A stretch of DNA of 64,000 nucleotides, from NCBI RefSeq assembly GCF_016405855.1, contig NZ_JAEFCA010000002.1, positions 567,031 to 631,030 on the forward strand. The letters are read 5' to 3'. Positions within the stretch are counted from its first letter, which is position 1. The number at the start of each line of letters is the position of its first letter. The DNA is from Flavobacterium sp. IB48 (GTDB taxonomy: Bacteria; Bacteroidota; Bacteroidia; Flavobacteriales; Flavobacteriaceae). The notes under the pieces are model-generated. The model saw only the letters and a program-made list of their open reading frames with translations, ran no database searches and was not told the DNA's origin. Of the stretch, positions 17,208 to 63,068 are shown one piece after another. The position numbers were made by a program, and so were the translations under genes.

Positions 17208-19136
17208 ATGAAAAGAACAATTACTATACTCGCATTATTGGTTTTACAGCTGATTCATTCGCAAACCAAAAACAAAACTGCCGATGCTCTTTTTGATAAG
17301 ATGTATTATGTTGAAGCCGCAAAATCGTATGAACTTTCCATCAACAATGGAGATGCTTCCAAAGAAACACTTCAGCGACTTGGAGACGCTTATTATTTCA
17401 ATACAAAAATGTCCAGTGCTTCAAAATGGTACGGAAAGCTAATTGCTGACTATCCGAATGAAGTTTCTGCGGAATATTTATTTCGTTACGCACAGTCGCT
17501 GCAAGGAATTCAGAATTATGAACTGGCAAAAAAATGGATGAAAAATTTCTCCGAAAAGCAAAAATCCACAGATCCTAGGGCTAAGAATTTTTCTCTTAAA
17601 AATGTCACTTTAGAAGATATTGAAAATATAAAACCTTCTTTTCTGCTAGAAAATTTAGACATAAATACTGCTAATTCCGATTTTGGACCAATGTATTACA
17701 AAGGCGACTTAGTTTATTCTACTACCGCCGATTCTTCCTATTTTAAAACTGAAAAATACGGATGGAACGATCAGCCTTATCTGAATATGCAACTGGGAAA
17801 AATAAGCGAAACGCAATCTAATGTCACTTTTAAAGAACGCTTCGGAAAGGACATTACAACAAAGTATCACGAGGCTTGTATCGCCTTTTCTCCTGACGAA
17901 AAAACGATTTATTTTACCCGAAATAACTATAACGGCAAATTAAAACGTGACAATAAAGGCATTAACAATCTAAAAATCTACTCGGCAACCGCTGTAGAAA
18001 ACCAAAACGGAACTACACAATGGACCGACATTAAAGAATTACCTTTTAACAGCGACAATTACTCAGTTGGGCATCCTTCCGTAAGCAAAGATGGTAAAAA
18101 GTTGTATTTCGTGTCAGATATGCCAGGAACAATTGGTTCTACCGATATTTTTGTAGTGGATATTTTAGGCAATAATCAATTCTCGGAACCTAAAAATTTA
18201 GGCGAAAAAATAAATACGACAGGACGTGAAATGTTCCCATACATTACCGATCAGGCGCTGTATTTTTCTTCTGACGGATTTTTAGGATTAGGAGGTTTAG
18301 ACGTATTTGAAAGCAGATTAAACGATGGCGCTTTTGACACACCAGCCAATCTAGGAGCGCCTTTAAACAGCAATAGAGATGATTTTGGTTATATCGTTAA
18401 CGAAGCCACTAACAAAGGTTTTGTGTGCTCAAACAGAAAAACAGGAAAAGGCGATGATGATATTTACTCTTTTGAAAGATCGTGCAACCAAGCCATAAGC
18501 GGTTATGTTTATGATGCTATTTCAAACAACAGAATTGCCGGTGCAATGGTAACGCTTAAAAATGCAAACGGAATAAAAGTAGCAGAAACCGTTTCTCAGC
18601 TCGACGGAAGATATGATTTTAACAACAACGTAAATTGCAATACTCCATATACAATTGAGGTTACAAAGGACAATTATAACACCAATACGAAAGCCATTGT
18701 TACGGCAAACAGCTCTGGAAAAACAGAAGCTCTTGTAGGTTTAGATCCTGCTTTAATTGCTCGGGAAAATGGAGTTCTGAAAATAAAAATCGGAATTATT
18801 TTCTTTGATTTAGACAAATCAAATATACGTTATGATGCTGCAATAGAATTAAATAAAGTAGTTCTCTTAATGCATCAGTATAACTCAATTGTTATAAAAA
18901 TTGAATCGCACACCGACTCTCGTGCCAATGATCAATACAACTTGGAATTATCTGATAGAAGAGCAAAAGCCACAAGAGATTATCTTATTTCCCAAGGAGT
19001 TGCTCCCGAAAGAATCGAAAGTGCAATTGGTTACGGAGAAACCCAATTAATCAATAATTGCTCCAATGGCGTTCCGTGTACAGAAGCGCAACATCAAGTC
19101 AATCGCCGAAGCGAATTCATCATAACAAAAATGTAA
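17208..19136 (+). CDS. OmpA-family protein with TPR, PD40 and carboxypeptidase-regulatory-like domains
   Basis: The 642-residue product has a signal peptide (TILALLVLQLIHSQ), a TPR-like helical region (about 25-115), PD40/WD-like propeller repeats (about 190-420, for example SPDEKTIYFTRNN and SKDGKKLYFVSD), a CarboxypepD-reg-like fold (about 435-500) and an OmpA peptidoglycan-binding domain (about 525-640: FFDLDKSNIR, SHTDSRANDQYN, LSDRRAKATRDYL, NRRSEF). Proteins of this layout, related to PorE/SprE accessory factors, anchor outer-membrane T9SS components to peptidoglycan. It is the last gene of the adhesin operon. Confidence 0.9.
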   Translation: MKRTITILALLVLQLIHSQTKNKTADALFDKMYYVEAAKSYELSINNGDASKETLQRLGDAYYFNTKMSSASKWYGKLIADYPNEVSAEYLFRYAQSLQGIQNYELAKKWMKNFSEKQKSTDPRAKNFSLKNVTLEDIENIKPSFLLENLDINTANSDFGPMYYKGDLVYSTTADSSYFKTEKYGWNDQPYLNMQLGKISETQSNVTFKERFGKDITTKYHEACIAFSPDEKTIYFTRNNYNGKLKRDNKGINNLKIYSATAVENQNGTTQWTDIKELPFNSDNYSVGHPSVSKDGKKLYFVSDMPGTIGSTDIFVVDILGNNQFSEPKNLGEKINTTGREMFPYITDQALYFSSDGFLGLGGLDVFESRLNDGAFDTPANLGAPLNSNRDDFGYIVNEATNKGFVCSNRKTGKGDDDIYSFERSCNQAISGYVYDAISNNRIAGAMVTLKNANGIKVAETVSQLDGRYDFNNNVNCNTPYTIEVTKDNYNTNTKAIVTANSSGKTEALVGLDPALIARENGVLKIKIGIIFFDLDKSNIRYDAAIELNKVVLLMHQYNSIVIKIESHTDSRANDQYNLELSDRRAKATRDYLISQGVAPERIESAIGYGETQLINNCSNGVPCTEAQHQVNRRSEFIITKM

Positions 19137-46798: not shown

Positions 46799-49198
46799 TT
46801 AGAATTTATAAGTAAGACCAACTCTAAAGTTTCGTCCTGGTTCTGCCTGCCAATAGTAAGCTTGTAACCACTCATAATAAGAACCACTGTATAGATATTT
46901 GTCTAGGATATTAAATACATTTGCTGTTACTTTAATTTTTCCAATTTCGTAAGATAGTCCTCCATCTAACTTAAAGTAAGTAGGCAATCTTTCAAGACCT
47001 TCACCCCAAGTATCTGTTTGGCGTCCATCAAGGAATGTACCGCCTATAGAAGCTCCAAATCCTTTTAATTTACCATTTTGAATAGTATAATTTAGCCATG
47101 CATTCGCAGTATGTTTTGAATAACCAGGAACAATATCACCTTTTTCAATACCTTCCACATTAGATTTTGTTACAATAGATTCTGTAAAAGCATAATTTGC
47201 AATAAGATTAAGACCATCAAATATTTTTCCTCTTAAATCAAACTCAAACCCTTGCGCTCTTTTTTCTCCCAATACAATTTTTGTCGGATTCGACGGAGTA
47301 CTTAAAGGATCACTAGTTAATTCATTCTTTTTCAAAATATTATAAACAGACAAAGTAGTATTCCAAGAACCGTCAAACCAATCTTTTTTGATACCAAATT
47401 CAACGTTATTACCTGTTAATGGCTTCAACTCACCATCTCTAACAACACCAGATTGCGGTGTAAAAGCTTGATCGTATAACCCGTAAACAGCAAAATCATT
47501 AGTGATAGAATAGCTTACTCCAAAACGTGGTGTAATATGACTATCTTCTTGTGGGTCGTCATAGCTGCTAGTCTGTTTAATCCATGTATATCTTGCTGCA
47601 AGTGTTACTCTCAGCTTATTTTCAAAAAATCCAAGTTCATCCTGAATATATCCTGCTGCATATTTTGATCCATAAAGTCCTCCTGCTCTTTGGCTTAAAG
47701 GTGTATCGTGATCAAATTGCGGAAAACCATTCGAAGGAGTTCCATAATTAGGGTTATAAATGTTAAAAGGATTATCAACAGTATCAAGATCATGAGACTG
47801 TCCCCAATCTGCCATATAATCTTTGTCACCTAAATCTACACCTCCCAAAACTTTATGAGAAATGGCTCCTGTATTAAATTTTCCATTCACGAAAATTTGT
47901 CCCAAAAACATATTACTATCTGCATCCCAAATACCCACATTTCTAATAATATCTCCGTTACCAATGTCTCCATTTGCAGTTGTTGCTGGCCCTACAGCAG
48001 ATGGCCAAGAACTATATCCTTGTTGAATATATTTGAAATAAGAAGTCTGAGCTGTCAATTTCCAGTTTTCGTCAAATTTATGTTCAAATTGCAAATAACC
48101 ACTGTGATCTTGAATATTAGTATCTGGCAAACCTGGCGCCGTCATAGTAAAATCACGTGGCAAAGTAGCATAACCACCCGCTTTAGGTCCAAAAACATAG
48201 TAAGAACCAACTTCTGTCATGTTTGCATATTGAAAATTATACTCAAAAGTCAATTTTGTTCTATCATCAAATTGGTATGAAATAACTGGCGCAATAACAT
48301 AACGGTCATTGTGCTCAAACGGACGATGAGAACCTTTCTTTTGTGCTGCTCCATTAAATCTATAAAGCAATTTTCCTTTTTTATCTAATTTTCCGTCAAG
48401 ATCGACACTCACTCTATAAAAATCATAACTTCCGCCAAGAACACTTACTTCGCCTTTTGTAACTCCTGTCGGTTTTTTAGTCACCACATTATACAATCCG
48501 CTTGGATCTCCGCTTGAAAGCATGAATCCTGCTGGACCTTTTACAAACTCAATATGATCTACAAAACTCATATCTTCCGTTAATGGTCCCCAGAAAGAAG
48601 AAACTACATTAAATCCGTTTCTAAAAGCCTGAATTTGAGAACCTCTCATTGTAATATTGGTATACAAATCTCCCCAATGCTCCAAACGTACAGCACCACT
48701 CACATTTCGGATTACACCGTCGCTCATACTTGTAATTTGCTGATCTTTTAAGGTTTGACCACTTACAATTTGTATGTTTTGAGGAATTTCTAAAACTGGT
48801 GTTTGAAGACGTAATGACAATGAAGGCTTATCTTGCTTGTATTTATTCTTTTTAATCACTACTTCATCAAGATCTTCCTGGCTTTCTGAAAGAGAAAAAT
48901 TCTTAGTTGTCACTTGTTTTGAATTAACTACGATTTTATCCTCAATAGGCTGAATTCCTACTCCATTTAATACGATAGTATAAGTTCCTGGTTTTACATT
49001 TTTAATTTCGTAATGTCCTGAAACAGTCGTAATATCTGAATATTTTGTTCCTTTTAAAGCTACAGCAATATTTTCTGCAGGTTTATTGCCACTCAAAGAA
49101 ACTTTCCCGTTTACAGTTCCAAGCTGTTGCGCCATCATATTTAATGAGCTCAAAAGCAGTACGAAAAAGTAAACTTTTGGATTAAAAATTATTTTCAT
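46799..49198 (-). CDS. TonB-dependent siderophore-type receptor
   Basis: The 799-residue product has a signal peptide (YFFVLLLSSLNMMAQQ), a CarboxypepD-reg-like domain (about 25-110), a plug (about 125-250: PVLEIPQNIQIVSGQTLKDQ, VKGPAGFMLSSGDPSGLYNV) and a barrel of FhuA/FpvA type (FEYNFQYANMTEVG, DEGxF-like strands, carboxy-terminal FRVGLTYKF). The plug layout matches ferric-siderophore receptors. It is not paired with a SusD. It diverges from the thiolase-sdhAB genes. Confidence 0.93.
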   Translation of the reverse strand: MKIIFNPKVYFFVLLLSSLNMMAQQLGTVNGKVSLSGNKPAENIAVALKGTKYSDITTVSGHYEIKNVKPGTYTIVLNGVGIQPIEDKIVVNSKQVTTKNFSLSESQEDLDEVVIKKNKYKQDKPSLSLRLQTPVLEIPQNIQIVSGQTLKDQQITSMSDGVIRNVSGAVRLEHWGDLYTNITMRGSQIQAFRNGFNVVSSFWGPLTEDMSFVDHIEFVKGPAGFMLSSGDPSGLYNVVTKKPTGVTKGEVSVLGGSYDFYRVSVDLDGKLDKKGKLLYRFNGAAQKKGSHRPFEHNDRYVIAPVISYQFDDRTKLTFEYNFQYANMTEVGSYYVFGPKAGGYATLPRDFTMTAPGLPDTNIQDHSGYLQFEHKFDENWKLTAQTSYFKYIQQGYSSWPSAVGPATTANGDIGNGDIIRNVGIWDADSNMFLGQIFVNGKFNTGAISHKVLGGVDLGDKDYMADWGQSHDLDTVDNPFNIYNPNYGTPSNGFPQFDHDTPLSQRAGGLYGSKYAAGYIQDELGFFENKLRVTLAARYTWIKQTSSYDDPQEDSHITPRFGVSYSITNDFAVYGLYDQAFTPQSGVVRDGELKPLTGNNVEFGIKKDWFDGSWNTTLSVYNILKKNELTSDPLSTPSNPTKIVLGEKRAQGFEFDLRGKIFDGLNLIANYAFTESIVTKSNVEGIEKGDIVPGYSKHTANAWLNYTIQNGKLKGFGASIGGTFLDGRQTDTWGEGLERLPTYFKLDGGLSYEIGKIKVTANVFNILDKYLYSGSYYEWLQAYYWQAEPGRNFRVGLTYKF

Positions 49199-49223
49199 TT
49201 GGTTTTGATTTTAAATTGAGCGA

Positions 49224-49255
49224 CAAAAGTATGTGCTAATCTCAACTTTTCCAAA
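49224..49255 (-). promoter_or_regulatory. Putative promoter of the siderophore receptor
   Basis: On the minus strand TTTG (49252-49255) is followed after 20 nt by TACTTTTG (49224-49231), matching the -33 and -7 boxes of Bacteroidota promoters. The leader would be short, about 20 nt. No Fur box was confidently seen. Confidence 0.55.
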
Positions 49256-49434
49256 TTATTTTTATCCATTCTAAATAAATACAACAAAATAAAGAAGATC
49301 AGTAGAAATAATTCTAAAAACTTTAATTCTCAGTTATTTCCTGATAATCTTAATCTGCATTAAGAAGGAAACCAAAATCTATTTCTATCTTTATATTTCG
49401 AAATTTCAAAACCAAAAACAAATAACTTCCTGAT

Positions 49435-50712
49435 ATGAAATCAAATACAATAAGAAAAGTTGCCATTGTAGGCTATAACAGAATTCCTTTTGCAAGAGCT
49501 AATACAGCCTATTCTAATGTGGGAAATAAAGAAATGATGACCGCTGCACTCAATGGTCTTATTGATAAATACAATCTAAAAGGAAAATTATTAGGCGAAG
49601 TTGCGGGAGGTGCAGTAATTAAACATACTTATGACAACAATTTGATTCGAGAATGCGTCATGCAAACCAGTCTAGATCCTGCAACACCTGCATGTGATTT
49701 GCAGCAGGCTTGCGATACCGGAATTGAAAGTGCTATTTATATTGCCAATAAAATTGCGCTTGGACAAATTGATTCTGGAATTGCTGGAGGTGTAGATTCC
49801 ATCAGTGATATGCCGATTGCTGTAAGCGAAAAACTTAGAAAAATATTGTTAGAAGCCAGACAAGCAAAGTCTTTGGGTGAGAAAATCAAAACGTTTTTAA
49901 AACTTCGTCCAAAAGATCTTAGTCCATTGGTTCCTAAAAATGAGGAATCGCAAACTGGACTCTCTATGGGCGGACATACTGAGATTACAGCAAAATATTA
50001 TAAAATTTCGCGTGAAGACCAAGATGAGTTTGCTTTAAGAAGTCATTTGAATATGGCAAAAGCTTATGATGAAGGCTTTTTTGATGATATGATTACACCT
50101 TTCAACGGATTGGATAAAGACAATAATCTTAGAAGAGACAGTACAATTGAAAAATTAGCGAAATTAAGACCAGCCTTTGATAAAGTAAATGGTACTTTGA
50201 CCGCCGGAAATTCAACACCTTTAACAGATGGAGCTTCTTGCATTCTTCTGGCTAACGAAGAATGGGCAAAAGAGCAAGGACTTCCTATTTTAGCTTACAT
50301 AACTTTTGCAGAAATTGCAGCAATTGAATACGTTAAAAATCAACAGAATCTACTATTGGCACCTTTATTTGCAGCTTCAAGAATGTTAGAAAAAGCGGAA
50401 TTAAACCTGCAAGATTTTGATTATTACGAAATTCACGAAGCTTTTGCTGCTCAGACTTTAGCAACTTTAAAAATTTGGGAAAGTCCTGAATTAAGTGCCG
50501 AAATTGGCTTAAAGAAAACGTTAGGCGCAATAGATCAAAATAAATTGAACGTAAAAGGAAGCAGCTTAGCAGCCGCTCACCCATTTGCCGCAACTGGCGG
50601 AAGAATTATTGGCGTAATGGCCAAATTATTGAACGAAAAAGGTTCAGGAAGAGGCTTAATTTCTATTTGTGCTGCAGGCGGTCAAGGAGTTACCATGATA
50701 ATCGAAAAATAA
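49435..50712 (+). CDS. Thiolase, FadI-like acetyl-CoA C-acyltransferase
   Basis: The 425-residue product has the thiolase triad: Cys93 in LQQACDTGIESA (nucleophile), His in YYEIHEAFAAQ and the carboxy-terminal Cys in ICAAGGQGVTM. The ASLAAAHPFAATGGR-like stretch GSSLAAAHPFAATGGRII is also diagnostic. Length suits the FadI/long-chain acyl type. It cleaves 3-ketoacyl-CoA in beta-oxidation or condenses acetyl-CoA units. No FadJ, dehydrogenase or transferase is nearby. It precedes sdhA by 211 nt on the same strand. Confidence 0.9.
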   Translation: MKSNTIRKVAIVGYNRIPFARANTAYSNVGNKEMMTAALNGLIDKYNLKGKLLGEVAGGAVIKHTYDNNLIRECVMQTSLDPATPACDLQQACDTGIESAIYIANKIALGQIDSGIAGGVDSISDMPIAVSEKLRKILLEARQAKSLGEKIKTFLKLRPKDLSPLVPKNEESQTGLSMGGHTEITAKYYKISREDQDEFALRSHLNMAKAYDEGFFDDMITPFNGLDKDNNLRRDSTIEKLAKLRPAFDKVNGTLTAGNSTPLTDGASCILLANEEWAKEQGLPILAYITFAEIAAIEYVKNQQNLLLAPLFAASRMLEKAELNLQDFDYYEIHEAFAAQTLATLKIWESPELSAEIGLKKTLGAIDQNKLNVKGSSLAAAHPFAATGGRIIGVMAKLLNEKGSGRGLISICAAGGQGVTMIIEK

Positions 50713-50742
50713 TTTTTTAAAAATATTTCAATTCAATTTTAT

Positions 50743-50789
50743 AAATCTGCAATAATCAGCTTAAATCTTTTTAATCTGCGTGAAAAATG
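50743..50789. repeat. AATCTGC-word repeats between thiolase and sdhA
   Basis: Words AAATCTGCAATAATCAGC and TTAATCTGCG repeat one after the other, in the same family as the CAGATTA intergenic elements. No long inverted partner is present, so this is one arm only. Confidence 0.45.
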
Positions 50790-50923
50790 TAAACATGTAA
50801 CTGTACTTAAAATCCATTTTTTATTTAAATATATTCATACAAAAACAGCTAAATATCAATATTTTATACTAAATTTAGTTTTCTATTTAAGCTTTTGTAT
50901 CAATTCATTTTAAACCACTAAAA

Positions 50924-52834
50924 ATGATGGAATCAAAAATACCCGAAGGTCCTCTTGCTGATAAATGGAGTCTTTACAAGTCTAAAGCCAAATTAGTCAA
51001 TCCCGCAAACCGAAAAAAACTAAATATTATAGTAGTCGGAACAGGTCTTGCGGGCGCTTCGTGCGCGGCTTCTCTTGCTGAACAAGGATATAATATTAAA
51101 TCTTTCTGCTTTCAGGATTCTCCACGACGCGCGCATTCTGTTGCCGCTCAAGGCGGAGTAAATGCTGCCAAAAACTACAAAAATGATGGCGATAGCACTT
51201 ATAGAATGTTTTATGATACTATAAAAGGTGGCGATTTTAGATCTCGTGAAGCCAATGTTTATCGTTTAGCCGAATGTTCTGCTCATCTTATAGACCACGC
51301 AGTTGCACAAGGGGTTCCTTTTGCAAGAGAATATGCGGGATATTTAAATAATAGATCTTTTGGAGGTGTTCAGGTTTCTCGAACTTTTTATGCCAGAGGC
51401 CAAACCGGACAACAACTTTTATTGGGCGCTTATCAAGCCTTAGAACGTCAAGCATTTTTAGGAAAAGTTGATTTGTATACTCGTCACGAAATGCTTGAAC
51501 TCGTGGTTATTGATGGCAAAGCCAAAGGAATAATCGCTCGAAATCTTGAAACAGGAATTTTAGAACGTCATGCCGCCGATGCCGTAGTTTTGGCTTCTGG
51601 AGGTTACGGAAAAGTATATTATTTGTCTACATTGGCAATGGGTTGTAATAGCTCTGCACTTTGGAGGGCGTATAAAAAAGGAGCTTTCATGGCTGGTGTA
51701 AGTTGGATTCAGTTTCACCCTACTTCACTTCCACAACATGGTGAAAACCAATCTAAATTGACTTTAATGTCGGAATCGCTTCGAAATGACGGACGTATCT
51801 GGGTTCCTAAAAAAGCCGCAGATGAACGAACTGCAAATGCCATTCCCGAAGAAGAACGCGATTATTACTTAGAACGCCGTTATCCTTCATTTGGAAATCT
51901 AGCGCCAAGAGATATTTCTTCAAGAGCAGCAAAAGAAAGAATTGATGCTGGTCATGGTGTTGGACCTATGAAAAATGCGATTTATCTCGATTTCTCGGAT
52001 GCCATTAAAGCGCAGGGAAAAGATAAAATCGAAGCCAAATACAGCAATCTTTTTGCGATGTACGAAAAGATCACAGGCATAAACGCTTATAAAGAACCTA
52101 TGCTGATTTCACCCTCAGCACATTTCACAATGGGCGGACTTTGGGTTGATTATGAGCTTATGACTACAATTCCTGGTTTGTTCGCCTTAGGCGAAGCTAA
52201 TTTTGCCGATCATGGAGCCAATCGTCTCGGTGCCAATTCGCTGCTTCAGGCTTGTGTCGACGGCTATTTTATTGCGCCATATACAATCCCGAATTATTTG
52301 GCAGGCGAATTGAATTTACCCAAATCTGATATTTCACATCCGGCTTTTGAAGAAGCGGAGAAAGTAGTGAGAAGACAGTTGGATCGCTTTTTACATACTA
52401 ACGGAACACTTTCTGCAGATTATTTCCATAAAAAAATCGGACGTCTTTTGTATGAAAAATGCGGTCTTTCGCGAAGCAGAAAAAAATTGGAAGAAGCCTT
52501 AATCGAAATTCGTGAACTGAAAGCTTCATTTGAAAAAGACCTTAGAATTACAGGAGATAATACTTTAAACAGCGAACTAGAAAAAGCTGGACGAATAGCC
52601 GATTATATAGAATTAGCCGAATTAATGTGTTACGATGCCTTACAACGTGAAGAATCCTGCGGTGCACATTTTAGAGAAGAATATCAAACCGCTGATGGCG
52701 AAGCTGTCCGCAATGACAATGAATTCTGCTACGTTTCTGCTTGGGAATGGAAAGGTTTAAATAATGAACCAGAACTTCACAAAGAACCTTTAACCTTTGA
52801 ATCGGTAGAACTTGCGGTGAGAAGCTATAAATAA
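50924..52834 (+). CDS. sdhA: Succinate dehydrogenase/fumarate reductase flavoprotein subunit
   Basis: The 636-residue product has the FAD-binding start ([20 protein letters not shown]) and the covalent-FAD His in [11 protein letters not shown]. The catalytic region includes [38 protein letters not shown] (active-site His) and [20 protein letters not shown] (Arg). Residues for both FAD and dicarboxylate binding are intact. It oxidises succinate or reduces fumarate as part of complex II. The usual Bacteroidota order is cytochrome b, then sdhA, then sdhB, but no cytochrome b gene lies upstream here. Confidence 0.95.
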
Positions 52835-52845
52835 ATGGTGAATAT

Positions 52846-52907
52846 TAATTGTAAATTATTAATTCACAATACTCATTCATAATTAACAATTCATAATTAA
52901 CAATTAT
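52846..52907. repeat. AATTAACAATTCATAATT word repeats between sdhA and sdhB
   Basis: The gap is built from TTCACAA, TTCATAATTAACAA and TTAATTGT words, partly inverted. It is A/T rich and may be one arm of a weak stem. Confidence 0.45.
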
Positions 52908-52909
52908 AT

Positions 52910-53656
52910 ATGAAACTTTATCTAAAAATATGGCGGCAGTTTAATTCTTCAACTAAAGGAGAAATGACAGATTATGAAATTGATGGAGTATCTGAACATA
53001 TGTCGTTTCTAGAAATGTTGGATCTTTTAAACGAATCTCTAATTCAAAATGGAGAACGAGTAATCGAATTTGATCACGACTGCCGTGAAGGAATCTGCGG
53101 TCAATGCGGTGTAATGATAAACGGACGCGCTCACGGGCCTTTAAAAAACACTACAACCTGCCAACTCCATATGAGAAGTTTTAAGGATGGAGATACTATT
53201 TATATTGAACCTTTTCGCGCTAAAGCTTTTCCTGTTCTACGCGATTTAAAAATTGACCGAAAAGCATTTGATTCTATCATTGCTTCGGGAGGTTTTATTG
53301 GCGCTGCTACGGGTCAGGCGCCAGAAGCAAACAGTATTCCGATTTCATACGAAACTGCAGAAGCTGCTTTTGATGCTGCTGCCTGTATTGGGTGCGGAGC
53401 TTGTGTGGCTTCGTGCAAAAATGCCAGCGCTGCTTTGTTTGTTGGTGCCAAAATAACGCATTTAGCACTTTTGCCACAAGGAAAATTAGAAGCCCAAACA
53501 CGTGCGGTTTCGATGGCAAAACAAATGGATGAAGAAGGTTTTGGAGCTTGTTCTGATACGAGAGCCTGCGAAATCGAATGTCCGCAGGGAATTTCGGTGC
53601 TTTCAATTGCTAAAATGAATTTAGAATATATGAAGGCTTTGACTTTTAGGAAATAA
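52910..53656 (+). CDS. sdhB: Succinate dehydrogenase/fumarate reductase iron-sulfur subunit
   Basis: The 248-residue product has the plant-type 2Fe-2S domain with CREGICGQCGVMINGRAHGP and a fourth Cys in TTCQLHM. It also has a ferredoxin-type segment CIGCGACVASCKNASAA and a final ACSDTRACEIECPQGIS Cys set, as needed for 4Fe-4S and 3Fe-4S centres. It carries electrons from SdhA to the quinone site. It lies 75 nt after sdhA. The cytochrome b partner is not in the window after it. Confidence 0.95.
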   Translation: MKLYLKIWRQFNSSTKGEMTDYEIDGVSEHMSFLEMLDLLNESLIQNGERVIEFDHDCREGICGQCGVMINGRAHGPLKNTTTCQLHMRSFKDGDTIYIEPFRAKAFPVLRDLKIDRKAFDSIIASGGFIGAATGQAPEANSIPISYETAEAAFDAAACIGCGACVASCKNASAALFVGAKITHLALLPQGKLEAQTRAVSMAKQMDEEGFGACSDTRACEIECPQGISVLSIAKMNLEYMKALTFRK

Positions 53657-53664
53657 GTTTTTTT

Positions 53665-53867
53665 TGCCACAAAGACGCAAAGACGCAAAGTTTTTCTTTT
53701 TTAAGTTTTAAAACTTTGCGTCTTTGCGAGATTAAAAAATACTTTAAATACATTGCGCTTATCCTTCGACTTCGCTCAGGAAGACAAATAGCGATTCAAC
53801 TATTTTCAATAAAAAACTTTGCGAGATTAAAAAAAACTTAGTGCCTTTGTGTCTTAGCGGCAAAAAA
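53665..53867. repeat. Inverted repeat of GCAAAGAC words plus CCTTCGACTTCGCTCAGG
   Basis: The left arm CGCAAAGACGCAAAGTTT (53676-53693) and right arm 53711-53728 are exact 18-nt complements. Further right, CCTTCGACTTCGCTCAGG (53763-53780) is a different semi-palindromic intergenic word. Near 53840, GTGCCTTTGTGTCTTAGCGGC pairs back toward the left arm. It lies between convergent sdhB and the DapB-like gene. Confidence 0.7.
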
Positions 53868-53872
53868 CAAAC

Positions 53873-54622
53873 TTAAACCGTAAAATAAGGTGTCAAGATA
53901 TCTTCAAAATTATAAAGCCCTTTTTCTTTTCCTTTTAGATTTTCAGCTACAAAAATGACTCCGTTTCCGAAGGCTTCTCTCGAAATCGATTCGTGTATTA
54001 AACGTACGGTTTGAAAAGGGAAACCAAAAATAACCTCGTGTTTACCAACTATTCCTCCTGCCCTAACAACATTTATATTTTCTTTATCGACATCAAGTGC
54101 TTCAGCAATTTTTACTGCTGTTCCAGATGTTCCTTCTTTGGCTTTAAAATGCTCTTCGTTTACTTCAATATCAACCCAAGGAGCAATTTTCTTTAAAAAT
54201 TTCGCTGCAAACAATAAATAGTTAACTCCCAACGTAATATTTGGTGACCAAAATACTGTTGTTTTATCTGATAGTTTCTTGAGTAATTTTAGTTCTTTTT
54301 CCTTGTAATGGGAAATTGCCGAAATAATTTTTACTTTATATTTTGCTGCTGTTTCTCCATAAGTATAAATTCCTTCGTTAGAAGAAAAATCGATAATTAC
54401 ATCTACCGGATGTTTTTCTAATAATTCTTCAACAGAGGTATGAGAACTAGAATAGATTAATCCGGGTTCATCTGACTGGATTCCAAAAAACTCAGGAACC
54501 GATCTGTGTTCCAAAACATTGCTTTGTCTTAAAACCCATTCAAGGCTGAATTTTTTATTTTCTAATAGTATTGAAGCTACTGATTTTCCAGTTTTTCCGA
54601 ATCCGATTAATCCTATTTTCAT
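53873..54622 (-). CDS. DapB-like dihydrodipicolinate reductase homologue
   Basis: The 249-residue product starts with the Rossmann motif MKIGLIGFGKTGKSVAS and has the DapB carboxy-terminal signature region NEEHFKAKEGTSGTAVKIAEAL. Canonical DapB reads EAHHRHKxDAPSGTA, with the His pair and Lys at the active site. Here the second His is Phe and one residue is missing before SGTA. NAD(P)H binding is likely; activity on tetrahydrodipicolinate is uncertain. A second Met two codons upstream was rejected. It may be a paralogue of the housekeeping dapB. Confidence 0.78.
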   Translation of the reverse strand: MKIGLIGFGKTGKSVASILLENKKFSLEWVLRQSNVLEHRSVPEFFGIQSDEPGLIYSSSHTSVEELLEKHPVDVIIDFSSNEGIYTYGETAAKYKVKIISAISHYKEKELKLLKKLSDKTTVFWSPNITLGVNYLLFAAKFLKKIAPWVDIEVNEEHFKAKEGTSGTAVKIAEALDVDKENINVVRAGGIVGKHEVIFGFPFQTVRLIHESISREAFGNGVIFVAENLKGKEKGLYNFEDILTPYFTV

Positions 54623-54984
54623 AAGCATTTATTTTTTTATGGGCGAAGCGTGCCCGGTTGAAAATATTGATATTGTAAAGTGGCCAATATCAATCCTAAT
54701 TTTAATTTTTTAAGGCAGTTTTAGAACCGCCTGTTCATAAAAATAGGAAAATCATAACAGAATAACCAACAAAATCTTCATTTTATAACAATAAAAATAG
54801 TTATTAGTACGATTCCATTTGTTAATACAAGATGCAAGCGTCATATAATACACTTAAACGTTCTTTTAAATTATTCTATTTAAAATGTTAAAAAATGACT
54901 TTAAAAAAAAGATTTGATGATATACAAGTAAACATATTTTAACTAGATTTATGACCTGATATCCCCAAATTAATATCGTAAATA
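54623..54984. other. Intergenic region between DapB-like and DUF1810 genes
   Basis: The region is A/T-rich. One inverted pair, ATTGATATT (54666-54674) and AATATCAAT (54686-54694), could be a dimeric operator upstream of the minus-strand DapB-like gene. A weaker hairpin lies near 54712-54732 (GGCAGTT with AACCGCC). No gene was recognised. Confidence 0.4.
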
Positions 54985-55416
54985 ATGGCTTACAATAACA
55001 ATGGATTACTTCGTTTTCTTGATGCTCAAAACAAATTGTATTTAACAGCTCTGGACGAAATCAAAAATGGCAAAAAAGAATCTCCTTGGATGTGGTTTAT
55101 TTTTCCTCAAATAAAAGGAATGGGTTCGAGTGATACTTCTAAATTTTACGAAATCAAAAATGCTGATGAAGCAATTGCCTTTCTTGAGCATCCAATTCTA
55201 GGAAAACATCTTGTAGAAATTACCTCAGAACTTGTCAAAAAAGAAGAAAATGTTGCTGATATTTTCGAAAGTATTGATATAGAAAAGCTTCAATCGTGTA
55301 TGACTTTGTTTGCAAGTGTTCAAAACAGCGAACCAATTTTTCAGGAAGTCCTGCATAAATATTTCGATGGTTCATCTGATTTTCATACGCTGCAGCTATT
55401 ATATAGCAATCTTTAA
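54985..55416 (+). CDS. DUF1810 protein
   Basis: The 143-residue cytoplasmic product matches DUF1810 by FLDAQNKLYLTALDEIKNGK near the start and by SPWMWFIFPQIKGMGSS. DUF1810 members are uncharacterised small alpha-helical proteins, sometimes near nucleotide or stress genes. No catalytic residue can be assigned here. It is monocistronic between two A/T-rich gaps. Confidence 0.85.
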   Translation: MAYNNNGLLRFLDAQNKLYLTALDEIKNGKKESPWMWFIFPQIKGMGSSDTSKFYEIKNADEAIAFLEHPILGKHLVEITSELVKKEENVADIFESIDIEKLQSCMTLFASVQNSEPIFQEVLHKYFDGSSDFHTLQLLYSNL

Positions 55417-56462: not shown

Positions 56463-57062
56463 ATGAACAATAATGCCCGTTTCGAATTAGATCTTTTTCT
56501 TTCCTTTAAGGAAGGCGACGAAACTGCATTTAAGTTTTTTTACGACAAATATTTTAGAAGAATCCAGTCTTTCAGCGTTCAGTTTATTTATGATCAAGAC
56601 GAAGCTGAAAATCTTGCTCAGGAAGCCTTACTACATCTATGGCAAAATAAAGAAAACGTAGAATCTGTTAACGGAATTCAAGCTTTCTTATTTACTTATG
56701 CCAAATCAAAATGCTTGAATTTAATTCGTCATAATAAAGTGAAGGATAAATTCAAAAATGACCTCTTAAACCACAAAGAAAGAGAATTAGATATCGAAGT
56801 TTTAAATTCGATTCAGTTCGACACTTTAGAATTAACCGAATTAGAACGAATAATTCAGGAATCTATCAGCGAATTGCCTCCTAAAACTCGAGAAGTTTTC
56901 ATCAAAAAACGTTTCGAGAATAAAAAAAATGCAGAAATCGCCGAAGAGTTGGGAGTTTCTTTAAAAGCTGTTGAAGCCCATATGACAAAGGCTTTAAAGA
57001 TTTTAAAAACCAAATTATCTGATTATTTGTTCTTGATTTTTATCCTTATTTATAATAATTAA
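56463..57062 (+). CDS. ECF RNA polymerase sigma factor
   Basis: The 199-residue product has sigma region 2 (KFFYDKYFRRIQSFSVQFIY, DEAENLAQEALLHLW) and region 4 (LPPKTREVFIKKRFENKKNA, ELGVSLKAVEAHMTKALK), and lacks regions 1 and 3, as in ECF sigma factors. The next gene is a FecR anti-sigma factor 67 nt downstream, then a SusC with a signalling STN domain. This is the Bacteroidota trans-envelope loop in which receptor occupancy frees the sigma factor. Confidence 0.95.
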   Translation: MNNNARFELDLFLSFKEGDETAFKFFYDKYFRRIQSFSVQFIYDQDEAENLAQEALLHLWQNKENVESVNGIQAFLFTYAKSKCLNLIRHNKVKDKFKNDLLNHKERELDIEVLNSIQFDTLELTELERIIQESISELPPKTREVFIKKRFENKKNAEIAEELGVSLKAVEAHMTKALKILKTKLSDYLFLIFILIYNN

Positions 57063-57129
57063 GAATAAAAGGTAGGGTATTTTAATTCTGAGGTGTACTT
57101 ATAATGGCGAGAAGTTTTAAAAAGCATAT

Positions 57130-58233
57130 ATGACATCGGAAATAATAAATAAATACCTTTCTAACGAAGCTTCAGAACAAGAAGTTCAGGCACTTTTTGA
57201 TTGGATTGAAGCATCTGAAGAAAACAAACAGCAATTTTTAAAGACTAAGAAAATTTGGGCATTAAGCACACTTTCTTCCGATTTAACAATTGAAACTATT
57301 CCGGTCATTCAAATGAAACCGAAAAACAAAATCAGACAGTATTTACAATATGCTGCAGTATTTTTAGTATTTCTAGGTTTGGGTACGACTATTTATTTAT
57401 TTAATGGTCAGCCAGAAACTCCAAAAGAAATTGTTCTAGAATTGGGCGACGGCCGTCTGGAATATTTCTCAGGAAAAAACCAGACTACTCTTTTAAATGA
57501 CAAAGGCGATTTGATTGCCAAAAAATTTCCGACCGAGATTGTTTACTTTGGCAAAGTTCACGATCATAAAGTAATTTATAATACGCTTTCAATTCCGTAC
57601 GGAAAACGTTTCAAACTTAAACTTTCAGATGGTACCGTTGTGAGTTTAAATTCTGGAACAACTTTACGCTATCCGGAGCAATTTGGCTTAAACGGAAATA
57701 GAAATGTTTACTTAACTGGTGAAGCATTTTTTGAAGTTGCCAAAGACAAAATGCATCCGTTCATTGTTCATGCAAATCAGGCAGACATCGAAGTTCTCGG
57801 GACAACATTTAATGTGAGCGCTTATCCTGAAAATCCTACAGTTAATAGTACATTAATTGAAGGAAGCATTCGAATGTCTGAAGCTGTTAATCCTTCTAAT
57901 GCTATTTTGCTAGAGCCAAACCAAATGGCTACATGGCAAAATAATTCTAAAAAACTGGTCTTAAAAGAAGTCGATCCAACCTTTTACGCTGCCTGGACAA
58001 AAGGCGAACTTGCTTTTAAAGACACTCCATTTTCTACAATCGCTAAAATTATTCAGCGTACTTATGATGTTGAAATTATCAACGAAAATTCTGATTTGGC
58101 CAAACAGAATTTTACGGGTACGATTAAAATCAGCGAATCTAGTGTCGAGAACATTTTAGACCTGCTAAAACGTGACACGCCTTTTAATTATTCTATTCAA
58201 CAAAAAACCATTACAATCACCAATCCGCGATAA
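57130..58233 (+). CDS. FecR-family anti-sigma factor
   Basis: The 367-residue product has an amino-terminal cytoplasmic helical region (SNEASEQEVQALFDWIEASE), one TM helix (about 76-97: YAAVFLVFLGLGTTIYLF), a periplasmic FecR domain (SIPYGKRFKLKLSDGTVVSL, GEAFFEVAKDKMHPFIV, EVLGTTFNVSAYP) and a DUF4974 carboxy-terminal domain (ELAFKDTPFSTIAKIIQRTY, VENILDLLKRDTPFNYSI). It holds the ECF sigma until the STN domain of the SusC receptor signals. Next gene is 10 nt away. Confidence 0.95.
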   Translation: MTSEIINKYLSNEASEQEVQALFDWIEASEENKQQFLKTKKIWALSTLSSDLTIETIPVIQMKPKNKIRQYLQYAAVFLVFLGLGTTIYLFNGQPETPKEIVLELGDGRLEYFSGKNQTTLLNDKGDLIAKKFPTEIVYFGKVHDHKVIYNTLSIPYGKRFKLKLSDGTVVSLNSGTTLRYPEQFGLNGNRNVYLTGEAFFEVAKDKMHPFIVHANQADIEVLGTTFNVSAYPENPTVNSTLIEGSIRMSEAVNPSNAILLEPNQMATWQNNSKKLVLKEVDPTFYAAWTKGELAFKDTPFSTIAKIIQRTYDVEIINENSDLAKQNFTGTIKISESSVENILDLLKRDTPFNYSIQQKTITITNPR

Positions 58234-58243
58234 ATAAACAAAC

Positions 58244-61200
58244 ATGACATTTACGATACAACCCGTTTTAAGAAAAATTCTGTTTTTCTTAGCTATTCTC
58301 ATATCTGGATTTAAAGGATTTTCTCAGAATAAACTCATCAATATTCACGTAAAAAACAAACCTATAAGCCTAATTATCAAATCTATTGAGGAACAAAGTG
58401 ATTTTAGAATCATTTATAATGCAAAAAAAATAGACACCGAGCAGCTGGCTGATTTAGATGTTAATGATGCTACTTTGGAAGTTGCTTTAAAGAAACTACT
58501 TAAAGGCACAGATATCTCGTACTACATTCAGAAAAAGCAAGTTTTATTAACCAACGCTGCTCCTGTTGACAGATCTAAATCTGCTGTTCAGGAAACAGAA
58601 CGCATTATTAAAGGAACGGTTTACAGTGCAAAAGACAGACAGCCTCTTCCTGGTGCCACTATTCGTGTAAACGGAACTGGAATGGGTGCAATAACTGATG
58701 CAAACGGAAAATTTGCTTATGAACTAAAAGGCGATAATATTAAAGAACAAACTCTTGAAGTTGCTTATTTAGGAATGGAATCGCAATCGCAAATTGCTGG
58801 CTACAAAAAAGAATTTGTCTTTTATCTTCAAGAAGTTACAGACGAATTGGAGCAAGTTATTATTACTTCTTCATACGGAACTACTAAATTAAAAGAAGAA
58901 ATTGTTGGAAGTATTTCGACTTTGCAAGCCAAAGATATTGCGGTGGAGCAAGCTTCTGAAAGTTTTGACAAAATGATCACGGGACAAATTGCTGGAGTTA
59001 TGGTAGAAAATACTTCTGGTATTGGCGGTCCTGTAAAAATTAATATTCGTGGTCAGGGCACATTATCTTCTTTAAGCGGAGCAATTTCTGGAACTTCATC
59101 GCAACCGCTTATTATTGTTGATGGTGTTGTAATGAGCGAAGAATATGCTATTGATAGCAGCTTGTTTAACGGAAGCGGTGATTTTTCAGAAAACCTAGCT
59201 AATCCTTTAATGAAAATTGCTCCAGAAAATATCGAAACCATATCTGTTTTAAAAGATGCCGCTGCTGTAGGTATTTATGGTGCCGATGGAGCAAACGGAG
59301 TAATTTTAATTACAACTAAAAAGGGTAAAAAAGGAAAAACACAATTTGGCTTTTCAAATCAGCTTGGAGTTTCTTCTGCCGTTAATCAAATTAAATACTT
59401 AAACGGAGAACAATATACTGAACTGCGAAATGAGTATATGAAAAATACCACTCCTGGTTATGTTCCTGTTTCTTATAACGGAATAAATACAGATTGGTTT
59501 AATATATTAAATAGATCAGGTATTTATAACAAATACAATTTTAATGTTTCGGGTTCGACATCTAAATTTTCATACCGCACTAATGTTAGTTATACCAAAA
59601 TCGATGAACCGCAAATTGGAAACGAAACAAAACAATTAAACGCAGGAATTAATTTAGGTTACAGCTCTGGCAAATGGGATATTAATTTAATGCTTAATCC
59701 TAGTTTTGTACAAAAAGATGCACCAAATATCTTTTATAATTTCGCTTATCTTCCTACTCTCGCAGTTTATAATGCCGATGGTTCTTATGCTGATTTGGGT
59801 GTAAGCGGCGCAACCAGAGGAAATCCTCTAGCTGCTATTGAGCAAAATAAAAACGAAGCGCAAACTTTTGGTCTCTTAGGAAGCTTCAATGTATCTTATA
59901 AACTTAATGACAACATTAAATTCTCTACTCTTTTTGGTATGGATTATACCGATAAAGACCAAGATCGCTACTTTTCTGCAGCAAATGAAAGCGGACAGTT
60001 TAACGGAACTTTTGTTTTGGATAAAATTACCTATCCAGCTTGGGGACGACGCGTTATAAATCAGCGAAATTCTACTAAATGGAACTGGCAAGGACAAGCT
60101 TTATTTGATAAAAAATTGAACGAAAGCAATGAAATTGATGGTGTAGTTGGTTTTGAACTTGCAGAAGATAAAGCTGATTTTAATTTCAAATCTGGAGTAG
60201 GTTTCTTAAATCCTGAACAGATTCATAATGTTACAGATGCCATAAGAGATGACAATCCAGATACACCAGCAGACGAATCTAAAGGCGGTCAAACTTACAA
60301 AAGCGAAATTAGCTATAACTCTAGAGTTTCTTTATTCTCTCAGATAAATTATAACTACAAAAAACGTTATTTTTTATTGGCCAATTACCGTCGTGACCAG
60401 AGTTCTGTCTTTGGAGATGATACTGATGTGGCTCATAATGGAGGTTTTGGTGCTGGATGGATTATTAGCAATGAAAATTTTCTAAAATCTAACTCTTGGA
60501 TTGATTTTTTTAAATTAAAAGCCAGCTACGGTACAACCGGAAACTCTAAAATTGGTTCGTATAGATCTAAAGGTCTTTATAATATAAGCCAAAACGAATA
60601 CAATGGTTCTATTGGAGCAACTACTGGAGCTTCGCCAAATGGCAAATTAAGCTGGGAAAAAAACACAAAATTCAATGCAGGATTTGATTTTAATGTTTTT
60701 AAAAGAGTAGAATTAACATTAGAATATTATTATGATGATAAAAGCAATTTAATTGCTGCGAGAGACATTCCTACAGAAAACGGTTATAATTCTATTCAAT
60801 TAAATGCTGCTAGTATGTACAATAAAGGTTTTGAACTTACTACAAGAATCAAATGGATAAAAAGCAACGCTTTTAGATGGACAACGGCATTTAATATTTC
60901 TACAATAAATAATAAAGTAACTCATTTAAAAAGTTTAGGAAGCGATTATTCTCAGGCCAATATTGCAATGGCACAGAAAGTAGGTTACAGTACAACAACA
61001 TTTTGGGGAATTAAATGGGCCGGCGTAGATCCTGCAACAGGTAGAGATCTTGTCGAAAAAAACGGTAAAATTTACGATGCTAAAACCTACGGCGAACTAT
61101 ATACCGTTGCAGACTGGGAACCTATTGGAGACAAAACAGCAGATGCTTATGGAGGTTTTTATAACACTTTTACTTTCTATAACAATCTTACTTTATCTGT

Positions 61201-61603
61201 TAGAGGTGATTATCAAATTGGTGGCGATTTACTAGCTTCAAGTATTCTTATCGATCAATATAATGTAACAACAAACAGAAATCTTTCTGTAAATGCTTAC
61301 GATTATTGGAGAAACCCTGGAGATAATGTTTCGCAGTCAGCTGTAACCCTTTCGCCTATTCTTCCTAATTTAAGCAAGTATGTTTATGATGCTACATATA
61401 TCAGAATCAGCAATATTAATTTAAGTTATAATGTACCGCTAAAAAATACTTTTCTAGATGCTCTTTCTGTTTTTGCAGATGCTACAAATGTGGCGTATTG
61501 GTACAAAGAAAAGAGCCCAAAAGGAATTAACGGAGTACGTGAGTACAATTATATTTATCCGCAAGCTAGAACAATTTCGCTAGGAGTTAATGCTAAATTT
61601 TAA
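58244..61603 (+). CDS. SusC/RagA TonB-dependent receptor with STN signalling domain
   Basis: The 1,119-residue product has a signal sequence (ILFFLAILISGFKGFSQ), an STN domain (about 30-105: INIHVKNKPISLIIKSIEEQ, LEVALKKLLKGTDISYYIQ), a CarboxypepD-reg-like domain (about 121-205), a plug (about 215-365: ASESFDKMITGQIAGVMVEN, AAVGIYGADGANGVILITTK) and a barrel. The STN domain speaks to the FecR partner. It imports a glycan or peptide substrate with SusD. Substrate unknown; no glycoside hydrolase is in the window beside it. Confidence 0.96.
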   Translation: MTFTIQPVLRKILFFLAILISGFKGFSQNKLINIHVKNKPISLIIKSIEEQSDFRIIYNAKKIDTEQLADLDVNDATLEVALKKLLKGTDISYYIQKKQVLLTNAAPVDRSKSAVQETERIIKGTVYSAKDRQPLPGATIRVNGTGMGAITDANGKFAYELKGDNIKEQTLEVAYLGMESQSQIAGYKKEFVFYLQEVTDELEQVIITSSYGTTKLKEEIVGSISTLQAKDIAVEQASESFDKMITGQIAGVMVENTSGIGGPVKINIRGQGTLSSLSGAISGTSSQPLIIVDGVVMSEEYAIDSSLFNGSGDFSENLANPLMKIAPENIETISVLKDAAAVGIYGADGANGVILITTKKGKKGKTQFGFSNQLGVSSAVNQIKYLNGEQYTELRNEYMKNTTPGYVPVSYNGINTDWFNILNRSGIYNKYNFNVSGSTSKFSYRTNVSYTKIDEPQIGNETKQLNAGINLGYSSGKWDINLMLNPSFVQKDAPNIFYNFAYLPTLAVYNADGSYADLGVSGATRGNPLAAIEQNKNEAQTFGLLGSFNVSYKLNDNIKFSTLFGMDYTDKDQDRYFSAANESGQFNGTFVLDKITYPAWGRRVINQRNSTKWNWQGQALFDKKLNESNEIDGVVGFELAEDKADFNFKSGVGFLNPEQIHNVTDAIRDDNPDTPADESKGGQTYKSEISYNSRVSLFSQINYNYKKRYFLLANYRRDQSSVFGDDTDVAHNGGFGAGWIISNENFLKSNSWIDFFKLKASYGTTGNSKIGSYRSKGLYNISQNEYNGSIGATTGASPNGKLSWEKNTKFNAGFDFNVFKRVELTLEYYYDDKSNLIAARDIPTENGYNSIQLNAASMYNKGFELTTRIKWIKSNAFRWTTAFNISTINNKVTHLKSLGSDYSQANIAMAQKVGYSTTTFWGIKWAGVDPATGRDLVEKNGKIYDAKTYGELYTVADWEPIGDKTADAYGGFYNTFTFYNNLTLSVRGDYQIGGDLLASSILIDQYNVTTNRNLSVNAYDYWRNPGDNVSQSAVTLSPILPNLSKYVYDATYIRISNINLSYNVPLKNTFLDALSVFADATNVAYWYKEKSPKGINGVREYNYIYPQARTISLGVNAKF

Positions 61604-61607
61604 GAAA

Positions 61608-63068
61608 ATGAAATATTCAAAATACCTCTCTATATTTTTTCTAATGCTTTCATTACAAAGCTGTAGTGACTTTTTAGAACAGGAACCAGGAACGCAAACA
61701 TCTATAGATGAACTTTTAAAAACCAAAACAGGAGTTTTACAGGCTCTTACAGGCCTGTACTCTGAAGTTGACGGCAATCTGCGTCCAGAAATATATGCTG
61801 TATATGCTGATCTGCAAGGTGGCAATATAAAATTTACACCTATTGCAACAGGAAGTCTTAAGGGACAAATCACCACACCATCATTAATTGAACAAGCCTA
61901 TTCTTTTAATGATGTGGCAATTAGTAGTAATTATAAATCATTTTATGATAGCAGTTACGATATAATAAATCAGGCTAATTTAATTTTAGAATATACTCCT
62001 AAATTAACAGATGCTACTATTGCAGAGAAAAATCAAATACAAGCGCAGGCGTTGGCAATAAGAGCTTACACACATTTTCTTTTATCTCTTGTTTATGGTC
62101 AGGATTACAAATATACTGCCGATGCATCGCATTTAGGAGTTGTTTATAGCACCGAATCTATTAAATCTGGCATACAATACCCGATAAGAAAAACTATGGC
62201 AGAAACCTACGATTTAATTATCGCCGATTTAAAAAATGCCATCGATAATTATTCAGGCGCTACAGTGCTTGCTGGTCCAGAATATTCTTTTTTTAACCAA
62301 AAAAATACAAAAGCATTATTGGCAAGAGTTTATCTTCAAAAAGGAGATTGGGCAAATGCTTATGAAGTTGCAAATGATGTCATTACCAATTCTGGCGTTG
62401 TTTTAACCAGCAAAGAAAGCTTAATTTCAGAATGGGTAAAACCAGATCTTCCAATATCAGAAATTCTGCTTGAATTTACACCTAGAAAAGATGGCGAAGG
62501 AAATGTTTCATCATCTATGTCTCAAACTTTCGGTTATACTACAGATGTAAGCTTTCAAAAATACGCTGCTTCAAACGATTTGATTGATCTATACGAAAAC
62601 ACTGACTTAAGAAAACAATTGTTTCTTGTTAAACCGCTTTTTACTCTTGTAAATGGTGTACAAACTTATGTTGACTACAGTTTTACAAGAAAATATCAGG
62701 ATAATGCCGGTTATGTGGCTTTCAGACTTAGCGAAATGTACTTAATTCGTGGCGAAGCTGCACTTGAAACCAACAGAGCCGATTTAGCAATGGCCGATAT
62801 TAATATCATTCGTGCTCGTGCCAATGCATCATTACTAACCAATACAGCTAATCTTAAAGAAAACATCTTTTTAGAAAGAAGAAAAGAACTCTGTTTTGAA
62901 GGCTTTTTATTCTTTGATATTGCCAGAATGCATAAAGATGTTTCAAGAAATGACGGTTGTATGGCAACTGTTTGCAGTTTGACTTATCCGTCTTTAAAAT
63001 TTGTATTGCCAATACCAACATTCAACACTAATCTTAACCCAAACTTGCACCAAAATGACTCGTATTAA
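61608..63068 (+). CDS. SusD/RagB-family lipoprotein
   Basis: The 486-residue product starts at the ATG at 61608, giving a lipoprotein signal ending SLQSCSDFLEQ; an in-frame ATG at 61590 overlaps the SusC end and is less likely. Features include ELLKTKTGVLQALTGLYSEV, QALAIRAYTHFLLSLVYGQD, NTKALLARVYLQKGDWANAY, RLSEMYLIRGEAALETNRAD and ERRKELCFEGFLFFDIARMH. It binds the substrate at the cell surface with SusC. The next lipoprotein gene overlaps its end by 14 nt. Confidence 0.95.
   Translation: MKYSKYLSIFFLMLSLQSCSDFLEQEPGTQTSIDELLKTKTGVLQALTGLYSEVDGNLRPEIYAVYADLQGGNIKFTPIATGSLKGQITTPSLIEQAYSFNDVAISSNYKSFYDSSYDIINQANLILEYTPKLTDATIAEKNQIQAQALAIRAYTHFLLSLVYGQDYKYTADASHLGVVYSTESIKSGIQYPIRKTMAETYDLIIADLKNAIDNYSGATVLAGPEYSFFNQKNTKALLARVYLQKGDWANAYEVANDVITNSGVVLTSKESLISEWVKPDLPISEILLEFTPRKDGEGNVSSSMSQTFGYTTDVSFQKYAASNDLIDLYENTDLRKQLFLVKPLFTLVNGVQTYVDYSFTRKYQDNAGYVAFRLSEMYLIRGEAALETNRADLAMADINIIRARANASLLTNTANLKENIFLERRKELCFEGFLFFDIARMHKDVSRNDGCMATVCSLTYPSLKFVLPIPTFNTNLNPNLHQNDSY

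Follow-up and report, generated by a model that had tools for sequence, protein, structure and literature searches.

Complex II is generally presented as a membrane enzyme whose catalytic pair SdhAB delivers its electrons to quinone through an anchor. In SdhABE this pair works with a non-cytochrome partner, and TfrAB of methanogens is a soluble fumarate reductase whose TfrB contains a CCG domain. SdhABE, or methylmenaquinol:fumarate reductase, is known from Wolinella and Campylobacter (PMC2680327), flavocytochrome c and Osm1 are soluble fumarate reductases homologous to SdhA alone (PMC10238741), and the quinol:fumarate reductase of Prevotella bryantii is an example of the type B complex II of Bacteroidota, of the b558 family (PMC10739449). 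Here we analyzed an sdhA-sdhB pair without a cytochrome b gene, referred to as sdhAB2, in Flavobacterium sp. IB48. It lies at 50924-53656 of a stretch of 64,000 nucleotides (positions 567,031 to 631,030 of contig NZ_JAEFCA010000002.1, assembly GCF_016405855.1), here referred to as the window, whose numbering is used throughout. Most likely, the pair encodes a catalytically live SdhAB2 whose electrons are exchanged not with the cytochrome b subunit SdhC but with another partner, possibly off the membrane.

Open reading frames fill exactly the span in which the initial annotation had described a pair without cytochrome b. They are sdhA2 for the flavoprotein subunit (636 amino acids, 50924-52834) and sdhB2 for the iron-sulfur subunit (248 amino acids, 52910-53656), both on the + strand and spaced by 75 bp (52835-52909). 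SdhA2 scored 1112 bits against NF005749 (cut-off 866) and 919 bits against TIGR01811 (cut-off 541), while SdhB2 scored 405 bits against NF005746 (cut-off 243), all of them NCBIfam models; by these curated cut-offs and by its key residues the pair belongs to the complex II SdhA/SdhB catalytic families NF005749/NF005746. The linked diheme cytochrome b subunit SdhC, by which a type B succinate:quinone oxidoreductase is recognized, was not found at sdhAB2. In fact, a tblastn search of the whole window with three SdhC proteins gave no sdhC gene or relic (best E 0.65), while these queries recovered the genome's canonical sdhC at E 6e-24 to 1e-148, and no open frame of at least 60 codons with two hydrophobic segments occurs in 49001-55000. 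A split sdhC, another suspicion, is thus absent from the window.

The host genome (5.60 Mb, 36 contigs, 100% complete) possesses a canonical sdhC-sdhA-sdhB operon on another contig, with 59% identity between the two loci in SdhA and 63% in SdhB. Its single match to TIGR02046 (cytochrome b) lies inside this canonical sdhCAB. The pair is therefore a second SdhAB, as had been supposed, and not the sole sdhAB of a genome whose sdhC lies elsewhere. As a separate observation, the canonical sdhC of many genomes in the genus is a frame of about 273-323 codons that matches TIGR02046 in two pieces (e.g. G027:C28 and G120:C1), which suggests an insertion in the canonical cytochrome b subunit.

We further examined the distribution of this second type of pair (copy 2, the canonical one being copy 1). 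Among 80 named loci, sdhC is located just upstream of sdhA2 in 46, and in 38 of these 46 a gene for a DASS symporter is found further upstream together with a porin gene. The other 34 loci, here referred to as orphans, have no sdhC; 33 of them belong to one group of Flavobacterium (loosely labelled the F. johnsoniae group) and one to Dyadobacter jiangsuensis, whose gene order is porin-DASS-sdhA-sdhB with a spacing of about 50 bp between DASS and sdhA. By SdhA2, the nearest named relatives of the window are Flavobacterium tagetis, Flavobacterium sp. LHD-85, F. tistrianum and F. ginsenosidimutans. F. johnsoniae CI04 (L090) is another carrier of the orphan pair. A plasmid search gave a best match of 60%. 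The best-ranked matches of a literature search contained nothing on the orphan pair or on the porin-DASS-sdhCAB operon.

A draw of 121 genomes of the genus, in which copy 2 was counted as a full SdhB of the second type, yielded 23 genomes with copy 2: 14 at 88-100% identity to the window, which are orphans, and 9 at 66-85%. Two genomes were not counted, namely G028, with two canonical-type SdhB and 7% contamination, and G074, with one and a part. Each of the 14 orphan genomes, five of which are assemblies of 1-2 contigs, has one TIGR02046 match; each of the 9 non-orphan copy-2 genomes has two or three, with some canonical genes matching in two pieces. Among 25 sampled genomes of named relatives, all with a separate canonical-type SdhA, the six orphan genomes likewise have one TIGR02046 match and the other nineteen have two or three. 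The second-type SdhB is present in 2 of 48 Dyadobacter genomes, and the second Dyadobacter orphan (G577) shows the same sdhC-less order, with one sdhC in its genome. In a draw of 395 genomes of the phylum, some of which repeat named loci, SdhA of the second type (E <= 1e-280) was found in 21. Six of these are orphans of the window's genus (the window, G049, G063, G386, G457 and G465), and 14 of the other 15 loci carry sdhC. The remaining one, G341 (a single contig; L248:6155-10495), has the order aspartate ammonia-lyase (aspA)-sdhA-sdhB without sdhC, and one sdhC lies elsewhere in its genome. This is a third, distant sdhC-less lineage, in which aspartate may be converted to fumarate and then to succinate.

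Some loci of the second type differ in their arrangement. The porin gene lies downstream of sdhB2 and not upstream in Myroides (L130) and in five genomes of the window's genus (L055-L059), and in four of these five the DASS gene is downstream as well. In G445 (L249:5369-10367) a related sdhCAB is placed between two genes for universal-stress-like proteins (one weak UspE match, otherwise named by eye), with V-type ATPase-like genes close to it (by eye).

The initial annotation had proposed a phylogeny of SdhA as a check; trees of SdhA together with SdhB placed the pair in an sdhC-less clade nested among sdhC-bearing relatives. In the main tree, built by FastTree from 116 concatenated SdhA and SdhB sequences, with a locus having a stop in sdhB (L078) kept, the 34 Flavobacterium-group orphans including the window form one clade (support 0.914). 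This clade lies inside a group that also contains three Flavobacterium with sdhC (support 1.0), and the branch of Dyadobacter is found in another part of the tree. A quick maximum likelihood tree of 43 chosen rows, from which the loop columns discussed below were excluded, requires two changes, and a single shared orphan clade was rejected by the approximately unbiased test (p-AU 3.9e-6), which assumes a group named beforehand. These trees indicate that Dyadobacter lost sdhC independently of the Flavobacterium group. They also indicate that the window pair descends from a second sdhCAB operon spread across Bacteroidota, often behind porin and DASS genes.

In its wider form this operon reads porin, DASS Na+/dicarboxylate symporter, sdhC, sdhA and sdhB. 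As tree and flanks show, the ancestor of one Flavobacterium group retained sdhA-sdhB without sdhC, and the pair is now found at a locus beside a thiolase gene. The window pair lies between this thiolase gene and dapB, and in the stretches compared these neighbours are missing from all five of the nearest named Flavobacterium loci with sdhC (L096-L100), so relocation and loss of sdhC may be one event. The flanks of the orphan pair are without porin and DASS as well; since both genes are also missing in four of the same five stretches, they were perhaps lost earlier.

If the pair were a leftover, having lost its anchor and persisting as a neutral or nearly neutral relic on the way out, its genes should be read in the light of their integrity and selection. 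Both frames are intact in 33 of the 34 Flavobacterium-group orphans, and the orphan genes are under purifying selection. Among 33 orphans (L078 was excluded from this and from the exclusive-state and site-change analyses below), the median pairwise ratio of nonsynonymous to synonymous divergence (dN/dS) is 0.039 for sdhA (527 of 528 pairs) and 0.044 for sdhB (520 of 528), at a median dS of 1.3-1.4, close to saturation. The ratio is low in close pairs too, e.g. 0.019 in sdhA and 0.025 in sdhB for the window and L066. In this comparison dS is 0.18 for the canonical sdhA and 0.59 for copy 2; as the canonical gene has the lower dS within the same species, copy 2 may be less expressed. The copy-2/copy-1 dN ratio has medians of 2.7 and 3.7 in six orphan species and 1.5 and 1.8 in eight sdhC2-bearing species, from which no conclusion on relaxed selection is drawn, because divergence is not equal among the species pairs and dS is saturated in many comparisons.

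The catalytic parts are also retained. None of the 11 cluster cysteines of SdhB is missing in the 34 orphan rows counted (33 of the Flavobacterium group without L078, plus D. jiangsuensis). At least 115 of 116 aligned SdhA retain H71 for attachment of flavin adenine dinucleotide (FAD) and R329, H400 and R434 of the dicarboxylate site; these roles were assigned by motif after the description in PMC10739449 and not from a structure, and the Phe of the dicarboxylate site is not counted. In addition, 33 of 33 orphans (again without L078) have Ile in place of SdhA V353, a replacement that Dyadobacter does not share.

Decay is visible in single strains. In L078 (10073-10816) an in-frame stop interrupts an sdhB that is otherwise full, and in G015 (C9:306150-306422) a short sdhB remnant with stops lies between a C6-type gene and dapB. 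These two cases imply that the pair is dispensable and is being lost in some strains. The idea of a relic is further favoured by the scarcity of copy 2 in the genus and by the sdhA-sdhB gap, which, with the stop codon removed, measures 66-293 bp in most Flavobacterium-group orphans (26 of 33) and 15-17 bp in the other 7. The gaps inspected consist mostly of short A-T-rich repeats. G088, of the same species as the window, was considered as another case of decay and set aside: its single-base indels are dispersed among four genes, those for the TonB receptor and the thiolase, sdhA and dapB, and the frameshifts are therefore probably assembly errors. With intact frames, complete cluster cysteines and dN/dS values near 0.04 at such high dS on the other side, we consider a decaying leftover distinctly improbable.

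In the orphans, the anchor-facing [3Fe-4S] loop of SdhB is altered. In the window this loop is C214-S-D216-T-R218-A-C220 (53549-53569, + strand; D216 codon 53555-53557, R218 codon 53561-53563). Presumably it is equivalent to a part of E. coli SdhB with quinone-site residues, which we did not use as evidence. Two [3Fe-4S] cysteines bound the loop, and they belong to the domain in contact with the anchor subunit (PMC10739449). The consulted part of PMC3334918 offered nothing usable about the SdhB loop. At position 216, Asn is present in all 53 sdhC-linked copy-2 sequences and in 27 of 28 canonical ones (one Ser), and Asp in 34 of 34 Flavobacterium-group orphans, L078 included here, in D. jiangsuensis and in G577. 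Position 218 is Arg in the same 34 orphans and D. jiangsuensis, and Glu, Asp or Gly in the sdhC-linked and canonical rows. In 14 further sdhC-linked loci we found Asn216 in 13 and Tyr218 in three.

Positions 216 and 218 are the only exclusive states shared by the Flavobacterium clade and D. jiangsuensis in SdhB, and SdhA has none. Among 2384 control clade/tip pairs, which are not independent because the control clades are nested, one or more exclusive SdhB states occur in 24 and two in 1. The DNA form of the loop motif is present in 6 of the 395 phylum genomes, which are precisely the six orphans named above, and in 1 of the 48 Dyadobacter genomes, which is D. jiangsuensis. A recent transfer of the loop is disfavoured, since the Arg codon is AGA in the window and CGT in Dyadobacter. 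We also counted how many otherwise conserved SdhB sites have changed in the orphans and in two control groups linked to sdhC. Within SdhB 169-232 this is 3 of 33 for the orphans and 1 of 35 and 0 of 33 for the controls; in the rest of SdhB it is 1 of 82 for the orphans and 4 of 89 and 2 of 84 for the controls. On these small numbers, change in the orphan SdhB appears shifted toward the anchor-facing part.

The same region bears on whether SdhAB2 might dock the canonical SdhC as an alternative catalytic head, an isoform of the membrane complex II with other kinetics or regulation. Every orphan genome checked keeps one canonical sdhC, the catalytic residues are intact, and the anchor-facing region of SdhB2 is mostly conserved. 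However, Asn216 is common to the SdhB partners of both SdhC types and yet is Asp in every orphan of the Flavobacterium group and Dyadobacter, which disfavours the idea that SdhAB2 simply uses the canonical SdhC. Between the two SdhC types identity is just 29-35%, and the orphans have drifted little toward canonical residues: at the columns diagnostic of copy 1 and copy 2 they are copy-2-like in 30 of 30 for SdhA and 4 of 6 for SdhB, the remaining two SdhB columns being canonical-like (178) and new (218). We therefore regard the sharing of SdhC as credible though unlikely.

A dedicated unlinked anchor of another kind is also to be considered, e.g. a CCG-domain (SdhE-like) protein or another membrane iron-sulfur protein. 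Two CCG proteins are encoded in the host genome, both on contigs other than the window's; one adjoins a 445-amino-acid protein that by eye resembles a membrane iron-sulfur protein, which speaks for such an anchor. On the other side, the second CCG protein sits in a lutABC-like operon (by eye), and SdhA2 and SdhB2 fall far under the cut-offs of the SdhABE-type models (NF042982/NF042952). An anchor of this kind seems improbable to us.

Since the catalytic parts are kept, cytochrome b is missing and the anchor face has changed convergently, a non-membrane or peripheral SdhAB with a different partner is favoured. The alternative, non-SdhC partner suggested in the initial annotation has thus gained indirect support, from two independent losses of sdhC, purifying selection and the convergent loop change. 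As a whole, the best explanation is that the catalytic half of a second complex II operon became an anchor-free succinate/fumarate oxidoreductase, for which we see an even chance; set against all the rivals together, it is about evenly balanced. SdhAB2 would be a cytosolic or peripheral enzyme with succinate/fumarate chemistry at the FAD of SdhA2. Electrons would pass through [2Fe-2S] and [4Fe-4S] to a [3Fe-4S] cluster uncapped by cytochrome b and heme, and would be exchanged there with another donor or acceptor, such as ferredoxin, flavodoxin or another iron-sulfur protein. N216D, and E218R with it, could be an adaptation of the exposed [3Fe-4S] face. Fumarate reduction appears to be the more likely direction, because the pair of G341 lies directly behind aspartate ammonia-lyase and related operons carry a dicarboxylate symporter. 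A wider claim, that complex II heads of Bacteroidota have repeatedly shed the heme-b/quinone anchor to become free-standing SdhAB served by a soluble carrier through an exposed, re-tuned [3Fe-4S] cluster (N216D) and forming a cytosolic succinate/fumarate valve apart from the membrane chain, strikes us as somewhat less than evenly probable.

Several points weigh against an anchor-free enzyme, in addition to the strains with a damaged sdhB. G577 combines Asp216 with Glu218, so R218 is not general, and Phe216 occurs both in the G341 orphan and in the sdhC-linked G445. Column 216 was picked after the alignment had been viewed, and only two losses are informative. Beyond the exclusive states, convergence between Flavobacterium and Dyadobacter is not raised: if states are counted that may occur in other lineages too, the Dyadobacter row (L116) matches 3 of 6 derived states in SdhB and 3 of 8 in SdhA, and the maximum in other lineages is 3 and 4. 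Furthermore, 30 of the 33 conserved sites of SdhB 169-232 are unchanged in the orphans, which fits docking to some membrane protein, so a docking partner of some kind is still allowed. Electron partner, location and direction are what we infer from sequence, with candidate partners only. Regulation by oxygen is unsupported, as no full regulator site was found: a search of 160 bp upstream and of the sdhA-sdhB gap, made with a few patterns, gave no full CRP/FNR-like palindrome and no match to a Bacteroidota promoter, and only half sites appeared, mostly within A-T-rich repeats of the gap.

The gene upstream of the pair encodes a thiolase, an acetyl-CoA C-acetyltransferase (49435-50712, + strand). 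It had been annotated as FadI-type; the thiolase itself stands, and the FadI assignment does not, both FadI models being under their cut-offs and the best curated match being PRK09268 (690 bits, cut-off 539). The thiolase gene is conserved by synteny only, in 32 of the 33 Flavobacterium-group orphans among the named loci. In several orphans other genes intervene between it and sdhA, e.g. for a protein with GSDH, CBM6, PKD and a Por tail, or for a protein of about 970 amino acids with a tail of the type IX secretion system (T9SS). We had considered the thiolase as a functional partner or a replacement of sdhC; because of these intervening genes it does not look like a replacement and is treated as a neighbour. 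The 211-bp gap between thiolase and sdhA (50713-50923, + strand) was compared by eye among upstream sequences, and its last 60 bp or so before sdhA look alike among the orphans (15 of 34 sequences, no statistics). It is possible that this gap holds a leader or promoter belonging to sdhA2. Downstream of sdhB2 lies a dapB-like gene on the opposite strand, named by eye.

Two other loci in the window may be mentioned. At 5021-19136, a protein of 3731 amino acids, which contains 17 stretches of DUF11 and carries a T9SS tail of the CHU_C kind, is followed by PorP/SprF-like and OmpA-like genes, possibly forming a surface adhesion cluster. At 56463-63068 we found by eye genes for an ECF sigma factor, a FecR-like anti-sigma factor and SusC-like and SusD-like proteins, an ordinary nutrient-uptake locus.

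If SdhAB2 is indeed free of an anchor, at least two anchor losses with the same change of the exposed loop would make a natural experiment in freeing a respiratory enzyme from the membrane. It would also matter for annotation. Orphan pairs match models named plainly succinate dehydrogenase or fumarate reductase, and respiration models built on such names would presuppose a link to quinone that is perhaps not there.

Compared with known systems, sdhAB2 resembles the canonical sdhCAB/frdCAB of Bacteroidota in its SdhA/SdhB families, the FAD His, the Arg/His/Arg of the dicarboxylate site and all of the cluster cysteines, but it is without cytochrome b, lies at a separate locus and has the loop changes N216D and E/G218R. 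The nearest solved chains are 9lay_A and 9lay_B, the latter with Asn216. The window pair is related by tree, with 74-87% identity in SdhA, to the second-operon sdhCAB of Pedobacter, Sphingobacterium, Mucilaginibacter, Chitinophaga, Chryseobacterium, Elizabethkingia and others; unlike those, with sdhC in 46 of the 80 named loci, the window copy has none. One succinate dehydrogenase gene is among the iron-regulated genes of Elizabethkingia (PMC7221216), which we have not linked to the second operon. SdhABE, or methylmenaquinol:fumarate reductase, has different SdhA and SdhB families, against whose models SdhA2 and SdhB2 reach 218 bits (cut-off 1100) and 42.5 bits (cut-off 600), and sdhAB2 has no linked CCG subunit; it does not belong to this class. 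Nor does it belong with TfrAB, as SdhB2, at 248 amino acids and with no Pfam CCG match, lacks the CCG domain and scores 66.7 bits against the TfrB model (cut-off 385). TfrAB, flavocytochrome c and Osm1 are nevertheless relatives of complex II that function without a quinone anchor.

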